The position numbers and the translations under genes are program-made. Of a stretch of DNA of 64,000 bases, positions 44,831 to 57,337 are shown one piece after another. How positions within the stretch are numbered: the first letter of the stretch is position 1; each line of letters begins with the position of its first letter. The notes beneath the pieces are model-generated. The model searched no databases. It worked only from the letters and a program-made list of their open reading frames with translations, and had not been told where the DNA came from. The stretch comes from Saprospiraceae bacterium (GTDB lineage: Bacteria > Bacteroidota > Bacteroidia > Chitinophagales > Saprospiraceae). The stretch lies in NCBI GenBank assembly GCA_022448955.1, contig JAKVCU010000001.1, forward strand, positions 57,243 to 121,242. Reading direction: 5' to 3'.

Positions 44831-45399
44831 AAAAGTACTAAGCCTGCAATTGTATAATAACAACAGTGTCAAGTGGTAAAAATCAGCAATACTCATATAT
44901 ACCGCAAATCGATGATTTAGCTTACAAAAATGAAAAATAAAATATAAGCTTCTGGCAACGCCCTAAATAGCTCGGAGGTAATGTTAATGTGATCTTGTAA
45001 TTTTATAAAACTTATATTCAAAGTTGCAACAATCCTTTTTTTAACCTAAATTTATAATGTTCTTAATTCTAACCATAATTTCAGCACAACACTAAAATAC
45101 TGGTGAACGATTGGGATTCTTTGTTCATGGATAAAGAAATTTCCTATTTTTATAATCTTTCTGTCGATTGTTTAACATATCGCCGAATATAAAATAAAGC
45201 GTTCATATATGCCCAACGAATGCTTTCACCAGTTTAATATTGTAATCTCAGAACTTTTCTACAGCTCAACATTCCATTTTAACCCAAACACACTTCAAGT
45301 AGCTTTTTATTTGACATTTCTATGAATAACATTATGCAAAGTTTTTGCTTTATCAATCTATATTGATTGAGCTATTTTTGAATCATCAAGAAAGTGACT
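44831..45399. promoter_or_regulatory. AT-rich upstream region of the NOS gene with a -7 box
   Basis: A 569 bp gene-free region with no protein-like frame. TATTTTTG at 45373-45380 matches TAnnTTTG, 20 bases before the NOS ATG. A TTTG lies at 45344-45347, 25 bases further upstream, longer than the usual spacing. Nothing else stands out. Confidence 0.35.
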
Positions 45400-46518
45400 A
45401 TGAATTCGATTGGTGCACAGGTAGAAAGGATTTCTGTGGGTTTGAAAGAAAAGGCTAAATCCTTTTTAGGGCAAGTCTATGAAGAGAATAACTTGTTGGA
45501 AAAGCTTCCTGCAAGATGGAAAGTTGTTGAAAAAGAAATTGAAGAAACGGGTTCCTATATCCACACATTTCTAGAACTGGAATATGGTGCTAAATTGGCA
45601 TGGCGCAATTCTAATCGATGCATAGGTCGACTGTTTTGGAAAAGCCTGAAAGTCATTGATTGTAGGGATGTTGAGACTGAGAATGAAGCATTTGACTGCA
45701 TTTTGGATCATATCGATTATGCCACTAATGGTGGCAAAATTAGGAATACGGTTAGTATTTTTGCACCTCCTTCCTTATCCAACGAACCACTCAAAATTTG
45801 GAACCATCAATTGATTCGATATGCTGGATTTGAAACTTCAAAAGGCATTATTGGTGATCCTGCAAGCATTGAGCTAACGCATAAAATGAAATTGTTAGGT
45901 TGGAATCCTAAACCTGCGCCATGGACTATCTTGCCGATCGTGATCCAAAAGGGAGATAAAGCGCCTCAAATCTTTGAAATTCCCAAATATATGATCAAAG
46001 AGGTGCCTATGGAACATCCTGATCACCCTTGGTTCGCTGATCTTGGATTGCAATGGTATGCTGTTCCAATGATTGCAGATATGGAACTGCACATCGGAGG
46101 TATTAAATATCGCTTTGCTCCTTTTAATGGCTGGTATATGGGAACCGAAATCGGTGCTCGAAACTTCGCAGATGAGAACCGATTCAACATGTTGCCAGTG
46201 GTGGCCGAAAAAATGGGTCTCAACCGTCAAAGAGGTTCACTTTGGAAAGATCAAGCTTTACTTACTTTAAATGAAGCAGTCCTTTATTCCTTTCGGAAAA
46301 ATCGAGCTCGAATCGTAGATCATCACACAGCAGCAGAACAATTTCAAAAGTTTATTAATGATGAAAATGCAGTAAATAGATCAATTACTGGTGATTGGAA
46401 TTGGTTGATTCCACCTAGTTCGCCTGCATCTACCTTCATTTTTCATCGATCTTTTGATAATACCATAAAAGATCCTAACTTTTATTACCGAAAGAAAACT
46501 TGCCCTTTCCTCGGATAG
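45400..46518 (+). CDS. nos: bacterial nitric oxide synthase oxygenase
   Basis: Oxygenase-only nitric oxide synthase of 372 residues, the size of bacterial NOS. It oxidises arginine to citrulline and NO with haem and a pterin, drawing electrons from unlinked reductases. The haem-thiolate cysteine is C74 in AWRNSNRCIGR, and the arginine-binding glutamate is E250 in FNGWYMGTEIGARNFAD. APWTILPIVIQ, PDHPWFADLGLQWYAVPMI and the haem-facing tail ITGDWNWLIPPSSPAST are also present. ATG 45400 is used; an in-frame GTG lies 6 bases upstream. There is no reductase domain or partner gene beside it. Bacterial NOS is best known in Firmicutes and Deinococcus and is patchy elsewhere. Confidence 0.95.
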   Translation: MNSIGAQVERISVGLKEKAKSFLGQVYEENNLLEKLPARWKVVEKEIEETGSYIHTFLELEYGAKLAWRNSNRCIGRLFWKSLKVIDCRDVETENEAFDCILDHIDYATNGGKIRNTVSIFAPPSLSNEPLKIWNHQLIRYAGFETSKGIIGDPASIELTHKMKLLGWNPKPAPWTILPIVIQKGDKAPQIFEIPKYMIKEVPMEHPDHPWFADLGLQWYAVPMIADMELHIGGIKYRFAPFNGWYMGTEIGARNFADENRFNMLPVVAEKMGLNRQRGSLWKDQALLTLNEAVLYSFRKNRARIVDHHTAAEQFQKFINDENAVNRSITGDWNWLIPPSSPASTFIFHRSFDNTIKDPNFYYRKKTCPFLG

Positions 46519-46662: not shown

Positions 46663-47070
46663 CTATCCTAAGTGCTCCCTTTTATTGCCGTCCTTAAACC
46701 ATAGCTTTCGCTGAACGGAAGGATCACCATTGTAGTTCACTGTGATTTCATCGCCTGCTTCAATGGGTTTTAACGCATAAAATTGTAAGGTTTTATTGTC
46801 AAAATCTGGCGAGTACTCTGCGTTGGGCTTAAAAGAGTGATTATAAATTGAACCATAACCTAGAATAATCGCAGATTGATCATCTTCTTTTCCCCAAATG
46901 AAATAATAATCGTGCAGCTTTGTTTTATGAATTTTAGAAGTATCAGAATCAGAAAGAACAATGACAGGACTAATTTCGATGAGTGAACCCTCTGGAATAT
47001 CCGCCGCTGTAAATACACCTCGACCTCCTAAATGACTGGGGCCTACAAAAATAGATGGAAGAACTTGCAT
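46663..47070 (-). CDS. SET-domain protein methyltransferase
   Basis: A 135-residue minimal SET-domain protein: GGRGVFTAADIPEGSLIEISP at the start, the pseudoknot motif GYGSIYNHSFKPNAEY (NHS-x-x-PN), and EITVNYNGDP near the end. Such short bacterial SET proteins probably methylate lysine using SAM. There are no zinc-binding pre- or post-SET cysteines. The substrate is unknown. Convergent with the NOS gene, spaced by about 145 bp. Confidence 0.85.
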   Translation of the reverse strand: MQVLPSIFVGPSHLGGRGVFTAADIPEGSLIEISPVIVLSDSDTSKIHKTKLHDYYFIWGKEDDQSAIILGYGSIYNHSFKPNAEYSPDFDNKTLQFYALKPIEAGDEITVNYNGDPSVQRKLWFKDGNKREHLG

Positions 47071-48882: not shown

Positions 48883-48914
48883 TTTGCTTTACTAACGAAC
48901 ATTCGTTAGTTTTG
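48883..48914 (+). promoter_or_regulatory. paa operon promoter
   Basis: TTTG at 48883-48886 and TAGTTTTG at 48907-48914 match the Bacteroidota -33 (TTTG) and -7 (TAnnTTTG) elements with 20 bases between them. The transcription start would fall near 48921, about 20 bases before the paaE ATG. The palindromic operator lies between and over these elements. Confidence 0.75.
48891..48910. promoter_or_regulatory. palindromic operator in the paa promoter
   Basis: ACTAACGAA-CA-TTCGTTAGT is a perfect 9 bp inverted repeat around a 2-base centre. It fills the spacer and overlaps the first four bases of the -7 box, a placement that would let a bound dimer block RNA polymerase. The length and symmetry fit a TetR-family operator such as the PaaR type; no TetR gene is in the window. 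Confidence 0.8.
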
Positions 48915-48941: not shown

Positions 48942-50009
48942 ATGCCGACTAAATTTTATCCTGTTAAGGTTCAAGCCGTAGAAAAAACGACTTCCGATTG
49001 TACCATTATTTCCTTGGAGGTTAAGGAAGAGTGGAAGGAAGAATTTGCCTTTAAACAAGGCCAGTATCTTACCTTGAAAACCATAATAAATGGCGAAGAC
49101 GTTCGTCGCTCTTACTCTTTGTGCTCTTCTCCAGTTGATGGGCAGTGGAAGGTAGCTGTCAAAAAGATTGATGGTGGACGGTTTTCTACCTTCGCCAATG
49201 ATGTTTTGAAGCAAGGGGATACGCTTGAGGTCATGCCACCCAACGGCAGATTTTACGTAGAGGTAGATTCGGCGAAAGCCAAAAATTATGTCGCTTTTGC
49301 AGCAGGAAGTGGTATTACCCCAATACTTTCTATTATCAAAACACACCTTCACTTAGAGCCTGAAAGTACTTTCCAATTATTCTATGTTAATCGTTCGGTT
49401 GGATCTATTATTCTCAAAGAAGAGATTGAAGGCTTGAAGAATCAGTTTTTAGATCGCCTAGAAATATATCATTTTTTGACCCAGCAAGAAAGAAGCACAC
49501 CTCTTTTTAATGGCCGTATTGATGAACAAAAGTTAGCTGTTATTTATAAGCAATTCATAGACGGAGATGCGACGGATGATTATTTCATTTGTGGACCAAC
49601 AGCTATGATTTTCTTGATTAGAGATTTCTTAAAGGAAAAAGGAGTGGATGAAGAAAAAGTCCATTTTGAACTCTTCAACACGGATGGTGCTGCTCCTTCT
49701 AAGAAGAAACGTACCATTGATAATAGCCTTTTATCACAAATTACTATCATAGAAGGCGGAAAAAACTTTAAATTTAGTATACCAAGAGGTTCTGATAATA
49801 TCTTGGATGCTGCTTTGAATAAAAATGCTGACCTACCATTTGCTTGTAAAGGGGGTGTTTGTTGTACCTGTAGAGCAAAGTTAGTGGAAGGTGAAGTAGA
49901 TATGGAAGTTAACTACGCGCTTGAAAAGAGTGAAGTGGAGGCTGGATATATTTTAACATGTCAAGCTATTCCATTATCAGAAAAGGTAACGGTTGATTTC
50001 GAAGCATAA
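48942..50009 (+). CDS. paaE: phenylacetyl-CoA epoxidase reductase subunit PaaE
   Basis: A 355-residue reductase that passes electrons from NADPH to the PaaA di-iron centre. The ferredoxin-reductase half (about residues 1-240) has [10 protein letters not shown] (FAD), [12 protein letters not shown] (NAD(P)H) and FICGPTAMI. The C-terminal plant-type 2Fe-2S half (about 260-355) has the cluster loop C302-KGGV-C307-C308-T-C310 and a last cysteine in ILTCQ. It is the first gene of the operon, 28 bases from the promoter -7 box. Placing paaE first, before paaA, is a recurring Bacteroidota arrangement rather than the E. coli paaABCDE order. Confidence 0.92.
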
Positions 50010-50052: not shown

Positions 50053-51012
50053 ATGTCATTAAATATAGAGCAACTCGAAAAAGAGTTTCAAGACAAGATC
50101 GACAGAGGTGAGAATATCGAACCTAAAGATTGGATGCCTGAAAAGTATCGCAAAACCCATATCCGCCAGATTTCTCAGCATGCCCATTCTGAAATTATTG
50201 GTATGTTGCCAGAAGGCAACTGGATTACGCGTGCACCCTCTTTACGTCGTAAAGTTGCGCTTCTAGCAAAAGTGCAGGACGAAGCAGGGCATGGGTTATA
50301 CCTGTATAGTGCTGCAGAAACACTCGGCATCAGTCGTGATGAACTATTTGATCAGCTCCTTACGGGAAAAGCAAAGTACTCCAGTATTTTTAACTATCCT
50401 ACACTGAGTTGGGCAGATATTGGAGCTATCGGTTGGCTGGTAGATGGTGCAGCTATTATCAATCAGGTAATGCTAACGCGTACCTCTTATGGGCCTTACG
50501 CACGCGCAATGGTACGCATTTGTAAGGAAGAAAGTTTTCACCAAAGACAAGGATATGAAATTATGCTTACGCTCTCTAATGGAACAGAAGCACAAAAGCA
50601 AATGGCTCAAGATTCCTTGAATCGTTGGTGGTGGCCAAGCTTAATGATGTTTGGTCCTCCAGATGAAGTTTCTACCCACACAGAGCAATCCATGAAATGG
50701 AAAATTAAGCGTAAAACAAATGATGAATTGCGCCAGCAGTTTGTCGATATCACAGTACCACAAGCAGAAATCCTTGGTTTGACCGTCCCTGATCCAGATC
50801 TGAAATGGAATGAAGAACGTGCTCATTATGATTTCGGAGAAATCAACTGGGATGAATTCTGGCAGGTCATCAAAGGATATGGACCTTGCAATAAAGAGCG
50901 TATGACTACTCGAAGAAAATCTTGGGATGAAGGAGAATGGGTTCGTGATGCAGCAGTAGCACATGCAGAAAAGAAAGCAGCTAGAAGAGCTGAATTAAAG
51001 AAAGCAGTTTAA
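50053..51012 (+). CDS. paaA: phenylacetyl-CoA epoxidase catalytic subunit PaaA
   Basis: Di-iron monooxygenase subunit, 319 residues, that makes 1,2-epoxyphenylacetyl-CoA. Iron-ligand motifs are [14 protein letters not shown] (E-x-x-H) and [15 protein letters not shown] (E-x-x-H), with [20 protein letters not shown] upstream as the family N-terminal block. The C-terminus has [25 protein letters not shown] 50053 ([12 protein letters not shown]) is used because the frame upstream reads through PaaE-end sequence without family similarity. The paaB start is 3 bases downstream. Confidence 0.95.
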
Positions 51013-51015
51013 TCA

Positions 51016-51309
51016 ATGTATATTATGAAAAAGGAATGGCCAATCTGGGAAGTTTTTATCCGTAGCAAAAATGGATTGGAGCACCGACATGTCGGTAGCT
51101 TACATGCTGCTGACGAGACCATGGCAATTGAAAATGCTCGTGATGTTTATACACGTAGACAAGAAGGGGTAAGCATCTGGGTCGTAGAATCAAAGCACAT
51201 CACTGCTTCTAATCCAGACAATAATGGAGAGATGTTTGAACCAGCAAAGGATAAGGCTTATCGCCATCCTACTTTTTATGATTTGCCAGTGGAGCTAAAA
51301 CATATGTAA
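51016..51309 (+). CDS. paaB: phenylacetyl-CoA epoxidase subunit PaaB
   Basis: Small structural subunit of 97 residues. The signatures WPIWEVFIRSKNGLEHRHVG, SLHAADETMAIENARDVYTRRQEGVSIWVV and KDKAYRHPTFYDLP are those of PaaB. MYI at the start may be extra: ATG 51025 would give the more usual MKKEWP. It lies 3 bases after paaA and 1 base before paaC. Confidence 0.95.
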   Translation: MYIMKKEWPIWEVFIRSKNGLEHRHVGSLHAADETMAIENARDVYTRRQEGVSIWVVESKHITASNPDNNGEMFEPAKDKAYRHPTFYDLPVELKHM

Positions 51310-51310
51310 G

Positions 51311-52060
51311 ATGTCAAAATTGTATGATTATTTATTGCTTCTAGGCGATAGCTCAATGATCTTGGGACATCGCTTATCTGAACTTTGTGGTCATGGCCCC
51401 AATTTGGAAACAGATATTGCATTGACTAATATATCGCTTGACCTTTTTGGCCAAGTTAGAAACTACTTTCAATATGCTGCGGAGATGAAAGGAGAAGAGG
51501 CAACGGAGGATAGTATTGCTTTCTTGAGGCTTCCACACGAATACAGAAATGTGTTATTAGCAGAACAACCCAATACGGATTTTGCTTATATCATTGCTCG
51601 TCAGTTTCTTTTTGATGCATATCATTTGCCTTTAATGGAAGCATTAATAGAAAGCAAAGATGAACAAGTTGCAGCGATCGCACATAAGTCAATTAAAGAG
51701 GTGCGTTATCACCTGCGATTCTCTTCTGAATGGGTGAAGCGTCTAGGGGATGGAACAGAAGTGAGCCATCAGAAGATGCAGGAAGCCATTGATTACTTAT
51801 GGCCATACACTAAAGAACTGTTTGAAGAAACACCTCTTGAGGCAGCTATGAAAACAGAGGGCATAGGTGCTGATTTAAATGCTTTAAAAGTAAAGTATGA
51901 TGCACATGTGCAAGGAGTTTTAGCGGAAGCGACCATCAATATTCCAGAAACACCCTTTGCACATTCTGGAGGTAAAAATGGCATCCATACAGAACACCTG
52001 GGTTTTCTTTTAGCAGATTTGCAATACATGCAGCGGGCTTACCCGAATATGGCATGGTAA
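51311..52060 (+). CDS. paaC: phenylacetyl-CoA epoxidase subunit PaaC
   Basis: Structural, ferritin-like subunit of 249 residues that pairs with PaaA. It begins with LYDYLLLLGDSSMILGHRLSELCGHGPNLETDIALTNI, abbreviated here as GHGPNLETDIALTNI, the PaaC signature. AIAHKSIKEVRYHLRFSSEW and FAHSGGKNGIHTEHLGFLLA follow. Most iron ligands of PaaA are replaced, as expected for the non-catalytic partner. Confidence 0.94.
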   Translation: MSKLYDYLLLLGDSSMILGHRLSELCGHGPNLETDIALTNISLDLFGQVRNYFQYAAEMKGEEATEDSIAFLRLPHEYRNVLLAEQPNTDFAYIIARQFLFDAYHLPLMEALIESKDEQVAAIAHKSIKEVRYHLRFSSEWVKRLGDGTEVSHQKMQEAIDYLWPYTKELFEETPLEAAMKTEGIGADLNALKVKYDAHVQGVLAEATINIPETPFAHSGGKNGIHTEHLGFLLADLQYMQRAYPNMAW

Positions 52061-52070
52061 AATAAATAGT

Positions 52071-52559
52071 ATGACGGTAGTAGTAAACGAAGTGATAGAA
52101 CTTATTAGAGAGGTAAGTGATCCTGAAATTCCAGTACTTTCTATAATGGACTTAGGAGTAGTAAGAGATGTAGAAGTAAAACAGAAAGATGTATTGGTTA
52201 AAATAACGCCTACTTACTCTGGATGTCCAGCAATGGACATGATCTCTACCGAAATAAAATATAAACTCGATCAGGCAGGCTACAACACAACAGTAAAGTT
52301 GATACTTGCACCTGCTTGGACGACGGATTGGATCACTGAAAATGGAAGAAAAAAACTAGAAGCCTACGGTATTGCAGCACCACTAGAAGCATCAGCAGAT
52401 AAGATGGCCTTGATGGGCGAATCTAGAATGGTGAAATGTACCAATTGCGGTTCTACCAATACGGTCTTAGTTAGCCAATTTGGTTCTACCGCCTGTAAAG
52501 CACTCTTTAAGTGTAAGGATTGCCTAGAGCCATTTGATTACTTTAAGTGTTTGAAATAA
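52071..52559 (+). CDS. paaD: PaaD, epoxidase maturation protein (DUF59 plus zinc ribbon)
   Basis: A 162-residue protein with an N-terminal MIP18/DUF59 domain (VSDPEIPVLSIMDLGVVRDV, then PTYSGCPAMDMI) and a C-terminal zinc-ribbon-like region with the C-x2-C pairs VKCTNCGSTNT and FKCKDCLEPF. PaaD is needed for assembly of the epoxidase, probably in iron-sulfur or di-iron site loading. Its TAA shares one base with the paaI ATG. Confidence 0.93.
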   Translation: MTVVVNEVIELIREVSDPEIPVLSIMDLGVVRDVEVKQKDVLVKITPTYSGCPAMDMISTEIKYKLDQAGYNTTVKLILAPAWTTDWITENGRKKLEAYGIAAPLEASADKMALMGESRMVKCTNCGSTNTVLVSQFGSTACKALFKCKDCLEPFDYFKCLK

Positions 52560-52990
52560 TGGATCCACAACCACATCTTCCTACTGCAGTTTTCCAAAAA
52601 ATGATGGAAAAAGATTATTGCAGCCAATGGCTTGGAATTAAACCCATACTATTAGATGAAGGCCATTGCAAAATTCAAATGACCATTCGCAAAGAAATGC
52701 TGAATGGTCATGGCATTTTACACGGAGGCATAGCATTTACTTTTGCAGATAGTGCCTTTGCTTTTGCTTCTAATTCTTATGGCAGAATAGCCGTTTCTAT
52801 TAATGGTAGTATGGTATATTCTAAATCTGCTCAAGAAGGGGAAACGCTTGTTGCTGAAGCCATCGCACTAAATGTTACACACAAAACAGCTGACTTCGAT
52901 GTCAATGTGATGAGTGCAGCAACCAACGAAATTTATTACCGATTCAGAGGAACAGTTTACAGAAGCAGTAAAGAAGTGCTAAAATCATAA
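52559..52990 (+). CDS. paaI: hotdog-fold acyl-CoA thioesterase PaaI
   Basis: A 143-residue hotdog thioesterase that hydrolyses phenylacetate-pathway CoA esters, probably to release CoA from dead-end intermediates. GHGILHGGIAFTFADSAFAFASNS contains the conserved H-G-G and catalytic acid region. ATG 52559 overlaps the PaaD stop by one base and gives the usual length; a GTG 12 bases upstream is also in frame. Confidence 0.92.
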   Translation: MDPQPHLPTAVFQKMMEKDYCSQWLGIKPILLDEGHCKIQMTIRKEMLNGHGILHGGIAFTFADSAFAFASNSYGRIAVSINGSMVYSKSAQEGETLVAEAIALNVTHKTADFDVNVMSAATNEIYYRFRGTVYRSSKEVLKS

Positions 52991-53024
52991 AGCCAATTTA
53001 TCACACAGACCTAACCAAAGCGAA

Positions 53025-55520
53025 ATGACTAAACTTGAAAACTTTTCTTGTGGACAATGGTTGGCCCACGATGGCGAAGGAATTCCACAATATAATGCCG
53101 TGACAGGCGATTTGATCGCTACCTGTGGTAGCGAAGGCCTCTCTTTTGGAGATATGGCAGCCTATGCCAGAAAAGTAGGAAACAACAACCTACGTAAAAT
53201 GACCTTCCAGCAACGAGGCATGATGCTCAAAAAGCTAGCCTTGTTTTTACATAAAAGAAGATTAAATTATTATCCTGTTTCTTACCAAACAGGAGCAACC
53301 AAAGCCGATAGTTGGATCGATATCGATGGTGGAATTGGCACCTTGTTTGCCTATGCTAGCCTGCGTAAGCAATTTGCCAATGCCGCCTTCCATGTAGATA
53401 GTGAAGCGGTTAACCTTTCAAAAGAAGGCACCTTTATTGGGCATCATATCTTAGTGCCAAAGCGCGGTGTGGCAGTCCATATCAATGCCTTTAACTTCCC
53501 AATCTGGGGGATGTTAGAAAAGTGCGCTGTAAACTGGTTAGCGGGGATGCCTGCTATCGTGAAAGCCGCGGAACCTACTTCTTTCCTTACTCAAGTAATG
53601 GTAAAAGATATTGTCAATTCTGGTATTTTGCCAGAAGGTGCTTTACAATTGGTGTGTGGACCAGGAGTCGGAATCTTAGAGCCATTAAATGAACAAGATG
53701 TGGTATCCTTCACGGGGTCTGCTTCTACAGGTAGAATGCTGAAGTCAAATCCAAACATCATCAACAATGCGATTCCATTTAACATGGAGGCAGATAGCTT
53801 GAATGCAGCTATTCTTGGAGAAGATGCAGTGCCTGGTACGCCAGAGTTTGACTTATTTATCAAAGAAGTACGCCGTGAAATGACCGTGAAATGTGGTCAG
53901 AAGTGTACAGCGATTCGAAGAATTATTGTTCCAGAGAACTTACTAGAAGATGTTCAAATCGCTTTAGGCCAACAGCTTTCAAAAATTACCATCGGTCATC
54001 CAGAAGAGAAGAAGGTAAGAATGGGGGCATTAGTAAGCAAAGAACAGGTGGAGGAAGTGAGTCGTCGAGTAAAAGAATTAGCGGAAGAGAGTGAATTGGT
54101 TTTCGGAAACTTAGAGGCTAGCTTTGATGTCTTAGGTGCTGATCGCAAAAAAGGTGCATTCTTCGCGCCACTATTATTCTTAAATGACCATCCATTCCAA
54201 AAAATAAAAGTACACGAAACCGAAGCATTTGGTCCAGTCAGTACTTTGATGCCCTACAAAACAATGGATGAGGCAGTGCAGCTTGCGCAAATGGGTAAAG
54301 GGTCTTTGGTCTGTTCCATTGCCACATTTGATGACCAAATTGCAAGTGAATTTGTGGTGGAAGCAGCAACTCATCATGGCCGAATCTTAGTTCTTAATCG
54401 TGAAAGCGCAAAAGAAAGTACAGGACACGGATCGCCAATGCCCATGTTGCTGCATGGTGGGCCTGGCCGTGCAGGCGGCGGCGAAGAGATGGGCGGAATG
54501 CGGGGCGTAAAACACTACCTACAAGCTTGTGCTATCCAAGGAACACCAACAACAATCACAAAGATAACAGGTGTTTATCAGGCTGGGGCCAAATATGATG
54601 ATACGCCACAGCATCCCTTCAAATACCACTTTGAAGATATCCAAGCAGGTATGTCTTTAGCAACGCATCGTCGTACCATGACCGATAGCGATATCATCAA
54701 TTTTGCTAACCTCACTTGGGATCACTTCTATGCTCATACCGATATTACTTCTCTTGGCGGAACGATCTTCGAAAAACGTGCAGCACACGGCTATTTCCTT
54801 TTAGCCGCAGCAGCAGGTTTGTTTGTTTATCCAAATAAAGGCCCTGTAGCAGCAAATTATGGTCTAGAAGACTGCCGTTTTATGCGCCCCATCTACCACA
54901 ACGATACTATCTACGTGCGCTTGACTTGTAAAGAAAAACAAGATCGCGATACCAGAGGTAAGCAGTTCCCTTCAGGCGTTGTGAAATGGTTGGTAGAAAT
55001 TTTTGATCAAGATGACGAAAAGGTCGCTATTGCTACTATTCTTACTATGGTGCAAAAAAAATGCCCTTTCAAGGAGATCAACCGTAAAGTGATTGAGGAG
55101 ACCATTGCTCGCTTGACAGAAGATACAAAACCTAAATGGGGCTTGATGACATCACAGCACCTGATGGAACATTTTGAGTTCTTCTTCCGCATGGCTATTG
55201 GTGAAATTCCAACAAAAATTGTAACGCCAGAACATAAGATCGAACGTTTGCAAGAAAGCTTGTATAATTATCGCCCAATGCCAAGATCTTTCGATCATCC
55301 TTTATTAAAGAAAGGAGAAAAAGAAGATTTGCGCTTCGAAGATTTAGCGACAGCGAAAACCGCTATGCTAGAAGCATACGATAAGTTTGAAGCCTTTTTT
55401 AAAGAAAATCCAGCAATCACCACTCCTAATACCGTTTTTGGTGACTTGGATAAGGAAATGTGGGATTTATTAAATCGTAAGCATTTCAATCACCACTTTG
55501 AGCAATTTGACTTATTTTAG
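53025..55520 (+). CDS. paaZ: PaaZ, oxepin-CoA hydrolase / aldehyde dehydrogenase, with C-terminal extension
   Basis: Bifunctional ring-opening enzyme, 831 residues against about 680 in E. coli. The aldehyde dehydrogenase domain (about 1-520) keeps E255 (NMEADS) and C294 (GQKCTAIRR). The MaoC-like hydratase (about 530-685) has [21 protein letters not shown] further 140 residues follow, from [20 protein letters not shown] to [16 protein letters not shown]. This tail resembles DinB/DUF1569 proteins, with the spaced histidines MTSQHLMEH and RKHFNHH. The enzyme opens the seven-membered oxepin-CoA ring and oxidises the resulting aldehyde. The role of the tail is unknown. Confidence 0.9.
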
Positions 55521-55534
55521 GAAAAAATAGTCAC

Positions 55535-56869
55535 ATGCTTTATAATAAAGAGATTGAAACCCTTGCACTTCCTAAGCTACGTGCTTTGCAAAATGAACGT
55601 TTAACCACGCTTGTTCATCGCTTGTATGAAAAAGTGCCCTTTTATAAGCGTCAATTTGATGAGGCGGGTATCACGCCTATGGATATCAAAAGAGTTGAGG
55701 ATTTACATAAAATTCCCTTTACTAAAAAGACCGATTTAAGGGATAATTATCCATTCGATCTCTTTGTTGTCCCTCAAAATGAAGTGCTGAGAATCCATGC
55801 TTCCAGTGGTACCACGGGTAAACCAACTGTGGTAGGCTATAGCCGAAAAGACTTAGATATTTTTGACGAAGTAGTGGCGCGTTCACTCGTAGCTGCTGGT
55901 GCTCGCCCTGGCATGAAATTGCATAATGCCTATGGTTATGGCCTTTTTACAGGCGGTCTGGGTATGCATGGTGGTGCAACTAAGTTGGGCATGGCGGTTA
56001 TTCCCGTGTCCGGAGGAATGACCGATCGGCAATTAATGATTTTGCAGGATTTCAAACCAGAGGTAATGTGCTGTACGCCTTCTTACGCCCAGACACTGGC
56101 GGAGGAATGTAAAAAGAGAGGAATTGATACGGCAGAATTAGCCGTACAATATGCTATTCTAGGAGCGGAGCCTTGGACAGATACGATTCGTGCACAAGTG
56201 GAGGCAGGTTTAAACGTCAATGCAACGAATATCTATGGATTAAGCGAAATCATAGGACCGGGTGTTTCGCAGGAAGACTACGAGGAGAAGGGGAGTGGTA
56301 GTTATATTTGGGAAGATCATTTCTACCCAGAAATAGTGGATAGAGATACAGGAGAGCCTTTACCTTACGGTGAAGAAGGGGTACTTGTTTTTACTACCAT
56401 TAGTAAAGAAGCTATGCCTCTGTTACGATATTGGACCAATGATATTTGTAGCATTTATTACGATTCAGCTGCCAAGCGAACGCACATCAAAATGAGTGCG
56501 ATCAAAGGAAGAGCAGATGATATGTTGATTGTACGAGGCGTGAACTTATTCCCAAGTCAAGTGGAAGTATTGATTGATGAATTTGAACATTTCGTACCTA
56601 ATTATCAGTTAGAAGTAAGTCGAGAAGGTACGATGGATGAGGTGAAAGTGAATATTGAATTAAGTGAAAGTTTGTCCAATGCTATCGGAGTGGATGGCCT
56701 TTCGGCAAATGAACAAGTGAAGCAATTAATACATGACTTTCGTCAAAAAATCAAAAATAATATAGGCTTAAGCATGGACGTCAATGTTCAGCCTTTCGGC
56801 AAAATTCCAAGAAGTGCAGGTGGCAAATTAAGCCGTGTGAAAGATTTGCGTAAGCTTGATTCAAAGTGA
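55535..56869 (+). CDS. paaK: phenylacetate-CoA ligase PaaK
   Basis: A 444-residue adenylate-forming enzyme that converts phenylacetate to phenylacetyl-CoA with ATP, the entry step of the operon. Signatures: YEKVPFYKRQFDEAGITP, IHASSGTTGKPTVVGYS (P-loop), NAYGYGLFTGGLGMHGG, NIYGLSEIIGPGVSQE, and MLIVRGVNLFPSQVE. The C-terminal KIPRSAGGKLSRVKDLRK carries the catalytic lysine region. It lies 14 bases after paaZ, and its stop directly abuts that of the convergent Lrp gene. Confidence 0.95.
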   Translation: MLYNKEIETLALPKLRALQNERLTTLVHRLYEKVPFYKRQFDEAGITPMDIKRVEDLHKIPFTKKTDLRDNYPFDLFVVPQNEVLRIHASSGTTGKPTVVGYSRKDLDIFDEVVARSLVAAGARPGMKLHNAYGYGLFTGGLGMHGGATKLGMAVIPVSGGMTDRQLMILQDFKPEVMCCTPSYAQTLAEECKKRGIDTAELAVQYAILGAEPWTDTIRAQVEAGLNVNATNIYGLSEIIGPGVSQEDYEEKGSGSYIWEDHFYPEIVDRDTGEPLPYGEEGVLVFTTISKEAMPLLRYWTNDICSIYYDSAAKRTHIKMSAIKGRADDMLIVRGVNLFPSQVEVLIDEFEHFVPNYQLEVSREGTMDEVKVNIELSESLSNAIGVDGLSANEQVKQLIHDFRQKIKNNIGLSMDVNVQPFGKIPRSAGGKLSRVKDLRKLDSK

Positions 56870-57337
56870 TCAAGAAGTCAAACGAATAAAAGAAGTATTC
56901 TTACTCGCTTCCAATGACATAAAGGATTCAATTTTACCAATATTGGGTATATCAAAGAGTTTTTCCATGACAAACTCTTTGTAATCATCCATATCTTTGA
57001 CCATGATTTTGATGATAAAATCAAAGGCCCCTGTCACATAGTGGCATTCCATTACTTCATTCAGCGCCGTTATTTTTTGTACAAATTCTTCCACTCGATC
57101 TTTAGAGTGGTCTTTCAAAGAAACGTGCGCAAAGGCAATAAATTTTCGGCCTAATTTTTCTGGGTTGAGCACTGCTGTATAGTGATCAATAATCCCTTTT
57201 TTTTCGAGTTTTTTGATACGTTCGAATATAGGAGTGGTAGAAAGATTAAGCCTTTCAGACATTTCTTTTACCGTCATTCGACCATTTTCCTGAAGTAATT
57301 CTAGTATTTTTTTATCTGTAATGTCTAATTCTTTCAT
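56870..57337 (-). CDS. Lrp/AsnC-family transcriptional regulator
   Basis: A 155-residue regulator with an N-terminal winged helix (ILELLQENGRMTVKEMSERLNLSTTPIFERIKKLEKKGII, of which GRMTVKEMSERLNLSTTPIF is the core) and a C-terminal RAM ligand-binding domain (AHVSLKDHSKDRVEEFV, then ECHYVTGAFDFIIKIMVKDM). Lrp-type proteins sense amino acids or related acids; phenylalanine breakdown feeds phenylacetate, so a link to the operon is plausible but inferred. It ends exactly at the paaK stop. Confidence 0.9.
   Translation of the reverse strand: MKELDITDKKILELLQENGRMTVKEMSERLNLSTTPIFERIKKLEKKGIIDHYTAVLNPEKLGRKFIAFAHVSLKDHSKDRVEEFVQKITALNEVMECHYVTGAFDFIIKIMVKDMDDYKEFVMEKLFDIPNIGKIESFMSLEASKNTSFIRLTS

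Follow-up and report, generated by a model that had tools for sequence, protein, structure and literature searches.

In the 64,000-nucleotide stretch of a Saprospiraceae genome analysed in this work (hereafter, the window), a perfect palindrome embedded in the predicted promoter of the phenylacetate (paa) genes very probably serves as landing site, or operator, for a TetR repressor of the PaaR type (P0002) encoded away from the paa operon. The computed evidence lies in the promoter-operator layout, in its conservation, in the association of the site with paa-linked TetR genes, and in its single place in the genome. A PaaR-type switch is already known from other bacteria, and the find is solid but fairly ordinary; what is new here is the grammar of the site in Bacteroidota, the unlinked repressor and the apparent single-promoter regulon. 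In the literature available, mostly outside subscription journals and in part as incomplete texts, we found no description of such an operator in Bacteroidota; concerning the regulation of phenylacetate in Saprospiraceae nothing relevant was found, only work on plastics. For the breakdown of phenylacetate in Bacteroidota, the analysis names a concrete predicted operator, promoter and repressor; these, if true, would provide a phenylacetyl-CoA-responsive promoter for the genetics of this group and a natural series of single and double sites for studying how TetR proteins change their register on DNA.

The predicted promoter reads TTTG-N20-TAGTTTTG, and the form TAnnTTTG is described as the sigma-A -7 box of Flavobacterium in the available part of the source (PMC9723704). 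The palindrome ACTAACGAACATTCGTTAGT, with the arms ACTAACGAA-CA-TTCGTTAGT (48891-48910), occupies the spacer and overlaps the -7 box, that is, an inverted-repeat operator candidate is found inside the predicted core promoter of the paa genes (Table 1). This nested arrangement had been proposed in a preliminary description of the same DNA, and the base-level reading proved accurate, including the bases shared by the palindrome and the -7 box (48907-48910). The palindrome ends 31 nt before the start of paaE, and 27 bases separate the end of the -7 box from the paaE ATG (48942); with transcription starting at the predicted position (48919), the leader would be about 23 nt long. A perfect 9+2+9 symmetry is by itself common, with a mean of 0.62 occurrences per first-order Markov copy of the window (n = 100), and the strong evidence is the position and the conservation of the palindrome rather than its symmetry. 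Within the window, the palindrome is unique at up to three mismatches (shuffle mean 0.04); the search of the whole genome that had been recommended gave the paaE promoter as the sole place in 6.4 Mb at the same tolerance, the reversed control pattern occurring at 8 places. The composition profile contained nothing informative.

Table 1. Features of the paaE promoter, of the neighbouring genes and of the candidate repressor gene (window coordinates, except for P0002).
Feature	Position	Strand	Basis or remark
TTTG, upstream (-33) promoter element	48883..48886	+	Read from the sequence
Operator candidate, perfect 9+2+9 palindrome ACTAACGAACATTCGTTAGT	48891..48910	.	Read from the sequence; uniqueness; conservation in G037
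Overlapping unit 1, ACTAAC-GAAC-ATTCGT	48891..48906	.	Exact ACKAAY-N4-RTTMGT match
Overlapping unit 2, ACGAAC-ATTC-GTTAGT	48895..48910	.	Offset 4
Core AACGAACATTCGTT	48894..48907	.	One mismatch to the T. thermophilus PaaR consensus AACnAACGTTnGTT, compared by eye
TAGTTTTG, -7 box (TAnnTTTG)	48907..48914	+	Overlapped by the right end of the operator
Predicted transcription start	48919	+	Inferred with the -7 box placed at -12 to -5, from the Flavobacterium consensus
Xylose-isomerase-like TIM barrel gene (PF01261), upstream of paaE	ends 48803
paaE, phenylacetyl-CoA epoxidase reductase subunit, first gene of the presumed unit	48942..50009	+	TIGR02160, 441.1 bits (cut-off 420.8)
paaA, paaB, paaC, paaD, paaI-like, paaZ, paaK-like, remainder of the presumed operon	50053..56869	+	Operon membership inferred from gene spacing and orientation; scores of the paaI-like and paaK-like genes fall below curated cut-offs
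Lrp-type gene, facing the operon	56870..57337	-	Weighed as regulator, not favoured
P0002, TetR	G000:C154:49493-50062	minus	Only paa-family TetR of this genome, unlinked to the paa operon

The preliminary description had made its case depend on the presence of the palindrome upstream of paaE in related genomes, which is the decisive test against chance, and such conservation was indeed found. With the degenerate pattern ACKAAY-N4-RTTMGT, which was chosen after part of the sequences had been viewed and is therefore not blind, a site was detected in the 200 nt preceding paaE in 49 out of 113 distinct regions (the one under study included) and upstream of 40 out of the 73 paaE genes followed by paaA, the contrast with the controls being large (reversed pattern 0 and shuffle mean 0.01 in both sets). 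Many of the 73 loci around paaE relatives show the form ACTAAC-N4-GTTAGT about 25-50 nt before paaE, and the whole TTTG-N20-TAnnTTTG promoter enclosing an AAY-N4-RTT core was recovered in 10 of the 113 regions, with a spacing of 20 in all ten even though 18-22 was permitted. In G037, the only other genome of the same genus in the comparison set, the sequence upstream of paaE is ACTAACGAATGTTCGTTAGT, where 18 of the 20 palindrome bases are identical, against only 19 of 60 in the left flank. In some rearranged loci the site is located elsewhere, i.e., directly before paaA in three Hymenobacter (L075, L076 and L084) and directly before tetR in Reichenbachiella (L044). The site is missing upstream of 33 of the 73 paaA-linked paaE genes, and in only four of those loci does it precede tetR or paaA instead. 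In L111, L113 and L114, paaE is preceded by two exact sites at a distance of 21-30 bp from each other, and by eye L115, L116, L117 and L120 resemble them in having a second exact or near copy.

Concerning the protein that might bind this site, the genome harbours 12 TetR_N genes, none of them in the window. When all 12 were compared, P0002 turned out to be the best match of this genome for each of 62 related TetR rows; among the relatives, 43 of the 73 loci with paaA downstream have a TetR of its family no more than 2.5 kb from paaE. In a tree of 68 rows, P0002 joins its G037 orthologue (98/92) and then the paaE-adjacent TetR of G073 (88/87), and the 24-row clade that contains it (99/92) includes 16 rows adjoining paaE. 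The protein has the domains PF00440 (TetR_N) and PF17932 (TetR_C_24), as do the four relatives that were scanned, and none of the NCBIfam models reached its cut-off against it. The solved folds closest to its predicted structure (pLDDT 93.7) are those of Thermus PfmR (3VPR), KstR2, and AibR with isovaleryl-CoA, yet at 23-27% identity, and the pathways of these three proteins differ from phenylacetate breakdown. The PaaR-type label of P0002 is a provisional one, based on its paa-linked relatives, on the site and on the fold.

The linkage of the regulator gene to the paa cluster, which is usual but not strictly defining for PaaR systems, is absent for P0002 (contig C154), and its gene bears no exact site, just a 2-mismatch, 8-bp-spaced match about 35 bp upstream. 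Because of these two features, the pairing of P0002 with the palindrome is drawn from the relatives; for the same reasons, P0002 is probably not self-regulated, unlike those relatives whose tetR lies behind the paaE site. The neighbours of the P0002 gene resemble what we take to be genes for ribosomal protein S20 and a 2-oxoglutarate dehydrogenase, and a similar dehydrogenase-like frame is found near the unlinked P0002 relatives of G014, G037, G121 and G125. A second, distant TetR of the family is also present in G037, G014 and G121, and three genomes (G014, G088 and G121) show an exact site immediately before the gene of a distant family member. In G055, a paaE-linked distant TetR (L245) coexists with an unlinked close relative of P0002 (G055:C55:340846) and the site before paaE agrees with the single as well as the double pattern; two repressors possibly share one operator there.

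Most of the paa-linked TetRs carry YNH in the recognition-helix stretch, and 22 of the 36 YNH rows have a site before paaE; by contrast, the linked TetRs carrying YHY lack it in ten cases out of ten, an association that counts as a single event since the ten form one lineage. These Rufibacter/Pontibacter-type loci (L047, L050, L054, L059, L060, L065, L066, L068, L080 and L085) lack an exact site shortly before any of paaE, tetR and paaA, and the operator of their TetRs probably has another sequence.

On the basis of the layout of the promoter, it can be proposed that, without phenylacetate, P0002 would occupy the paaE promoter in the stretch separating its -33 and -7 boxes and block RNA polymerase. 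Once PaaK had activated phenylacetate to phenylacetyl-CoA, the first intermediate of the pathway, the latter would bind P0002 and cause its release, as for the characterised PaaR proteins (available part of PMC9493321). Since the site is composed of two 16-bp units (ACKAAY-N4-RTTMGT) offset by 4 bp, either two dimers might sit side by side on the 20-mer or one dimer might occupy it in either register. A dimeric repressor of the PaaR kind, suggested in the preliminary description, is the reading best supported by the conservation of the site upstream of paaE and by its association with TetR genes in the relatives.

Other regulators were also considered. The Lrp-type protein is a candidate by position, its gene being the only regulator gene annotated near the operon, as had been noted from the beginning. 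However, the site tracks TetR genes, and no Lrp match was found in any of six long relative loci (16-18 kb), five of which have the site, although the same stretches are also without a paaK match, so that an Lrp gene next to a more distant paaK might lie beyond them; we consider the binding of this Lrp-type protein to the palindrome very improbable. The original preference for a TetR over the neighbouring Lrp was borne out in one respect, as a paa-family TetR does exist in the genome (C154), and not in the other, as it does not accompany the best PaaH-like gene (C41:2397-3548): in the 9 kb read there, neither a TetR-like frame nor an exact site was seen. With 12 TetR_N genes in the genome and the cognate one not beside the operon, a TetR different from P0002 might be the one that binds; this appears improbable, given that among the TetRs of this genome P0002 is the best match to the whole set of related rows, and that the others placed in the tree (L001, L002, L005, L006 and L011) have long branches and a different recognition helix.

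The palindrome might also act as RNA, for instance as the terminator of the upstream isomerase-like gene, rather than as a protein-binding site. Indeed, it can fold into a hairpin (-11.3 kcal/mol, z -3.1) that has an 8-bp stem and a 4-base loop and is followed by UUUU. Nevertheless, the stem is A+T-rich, the half-sites conserve their sequence beyond mere pairing, the palindrome overlaps the conserved -7 box, and the site recurs before paaE also where the nearest upstream frame of at least 200 aa is divergent (L023, L025, L026 and L031), all of which makes this interpretation highly unlikely. Lastly, a palindrome of this type could have arisen by chance beside a genuine promoter, as the expectation from the Markov copies would allow; its conservation and its placement in the relatives contradict this, and we regard a fortuitous origin as extremely unlikely. 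The operator of P0002 remains our preferred reading.

As for the extent of the regulon, the pattern ACKAAY-N4-RTTMGT is not enriched in the genome under study (9 places, against 24 for the reversed control). A genome-wide regulon was rejected: two of the nine exact places are the overlapping pair described here, and the other seven comprise six lying inside ORFs and one intergenic place (C157:23044). P0002 would thus apparently serve a single promoter in this genome. In G037, a TonB-dependent receptor gene is preceded, at about 47 nt, by a second double site (ACTAACTAACGTTTGTTAGT; L172, G037:C517, position 2944). A different situation was observed in G144, a member of the same family for which no P0002 match was listed: it contains 95 copies of ACTAACRAACG (control 5), against one copy each in G044, of the same genus as G144, and in G000. 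Sixteen of its loci were read (L173-L188), and in 9 of them the site falls between convergent open frames. These copies look like a dispersed family of bidirectional terminators or uptake-like hairpins sharing the sequence of the PaaR site.

The 20-mer can be read as two 16-bp sites overlapping by 12 bases, each unit being formed by one TAAC half and one GAAC half; the two overlapping inverted repeats expected of a QacR-like operator are thus present as two exact ACKAAY-N4-RTTMGT units with a 4-bp offset. The right half of unit 2 enters the -7 box (GTTAGTTTTG), a feature shared with many of the single sites found in relatives. An early idea, according to which ACTAAC-N4-GTTAGT was the motif of the family and the window contained an odd 8-bp-spaced variant, was dropped on account of the ACGAAC sites found near close relatives of P0002. 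Indeed, beside TetRs at least 47% identical to P0002, the form ACGAAC-N4-RTTCGT occurs in 12 of 20 regions and the ACTAAC form in two more, while 20 of the 41 regions beside more distant TetRs have ACTAAC or ACTAAT half-sites.

The relaxed double pattern AACNAAYRTTNRTT (either strand), loosened after some sites had been seen, was found in 14 of the 20 regions beside the close TetRs and in 4 of the 41 beside the distant ones (Fisher p 3e-6, the regions being treated as independent despite their relatedness), as well as in 7 of the 52 regions whose locus was without a TetR, a group that includes the window, G037, G014 and G121, where the close relative of P0002 is unlinked. The contrast is gone once the strict Thermus consensus AACNAACGTTNGTT is applied (1/20, 2/41 and 3/52), and the window itself fails the strict form. 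Since, moreover, the groups were cut by identity (47%) and not by the tree, and kinship was left uncorrected, the difference between lineages in single and double sites is suggestive only.

The comparison with known systems refers to the parts of the cited papers that were available. PaaR is known in Thermus, Burkholderia and Corynebacterium (PMC9493321). The PaaR of Burkholderia cenocepacia (BCAL0210) is a TetR repressor, as P0002 would be; its site, ACCGACCGGTCGGT, is located between the promoter boxes and was defined by the authors as a "dual overlapping inverted repeat" similar to the QacR operator, and mutating either half of it raises expression without phenylacetate (PMC2770484). The two overlapping units of the window resemble this arrangement; however, the Burkholderia half-sites have C instead of A (ACCGACCGGTCGGT), several paa sites exist in the genome, the promoter is of the -35/-10 type, and paaR lies near paaABCDE, in contrast to the unlinked P0002. 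In Thermus thermophilus, the consensus of PaaR (TTHA0973) is AACnAACGTTnGTT (PMC6651687), from which the core AACGAACATTCGTT is off at one fixed position (11 of 12 matching), an exact match being found in only 6 of the 113 regions. There the effector is phenylacetyl-CoA (title of Sakamoto 2011, cited in PMC9493321), and paaR is inside the regulated cluster, which has two promoter sites, whereas here we have one site and an unlinked repressor. PaaX, a regulator of the GntR type, also represses paa genes by binding TGATTC(N27)GAATCA (PMC9493321), a sequence different from the site in the window; this candidate was rejected, as PF07848 has 0 matches in the genome (E 0.001), the control giving matches in 5 of 14 genomes, three of them above the cut-off. 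A 2026 survey based on gene context reported that in Flavobacteria complete pathways are strongly associated with PaaY-PaaR; it recorded regulators inside the gene cluster, and the word "operator" has 0 occurrences in its main text as available (PMC13186573). The available part of a paper on regulons of Betaproteobacteria contains no PaaR (PMC6449761).

One might speculate, although we regard it as rather doubtful, that a single Bacteroidota PaaR lineage reads a modular array in which half-sites recur every 4 bp. In flavobacteria and elsewhere, paa promoters would mostly have one 16-bp unit, whereas in the P0002 lineage two units would share 12 bases, like those of Thermus and Burkholderia, and would be occupied by two dimers; the repressor gene of this genus would have left the operon, lost its self-control and come to serve a single promoter.

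Further upstream in the window, a gene for a bacterial nitric oxide synthase oxygenase (45394-46518; PF02898, 506 bits) is followed by a small SET-domain gene (46663-47070), and similar-looking genes are found in the same order upstream of paaE in G037.
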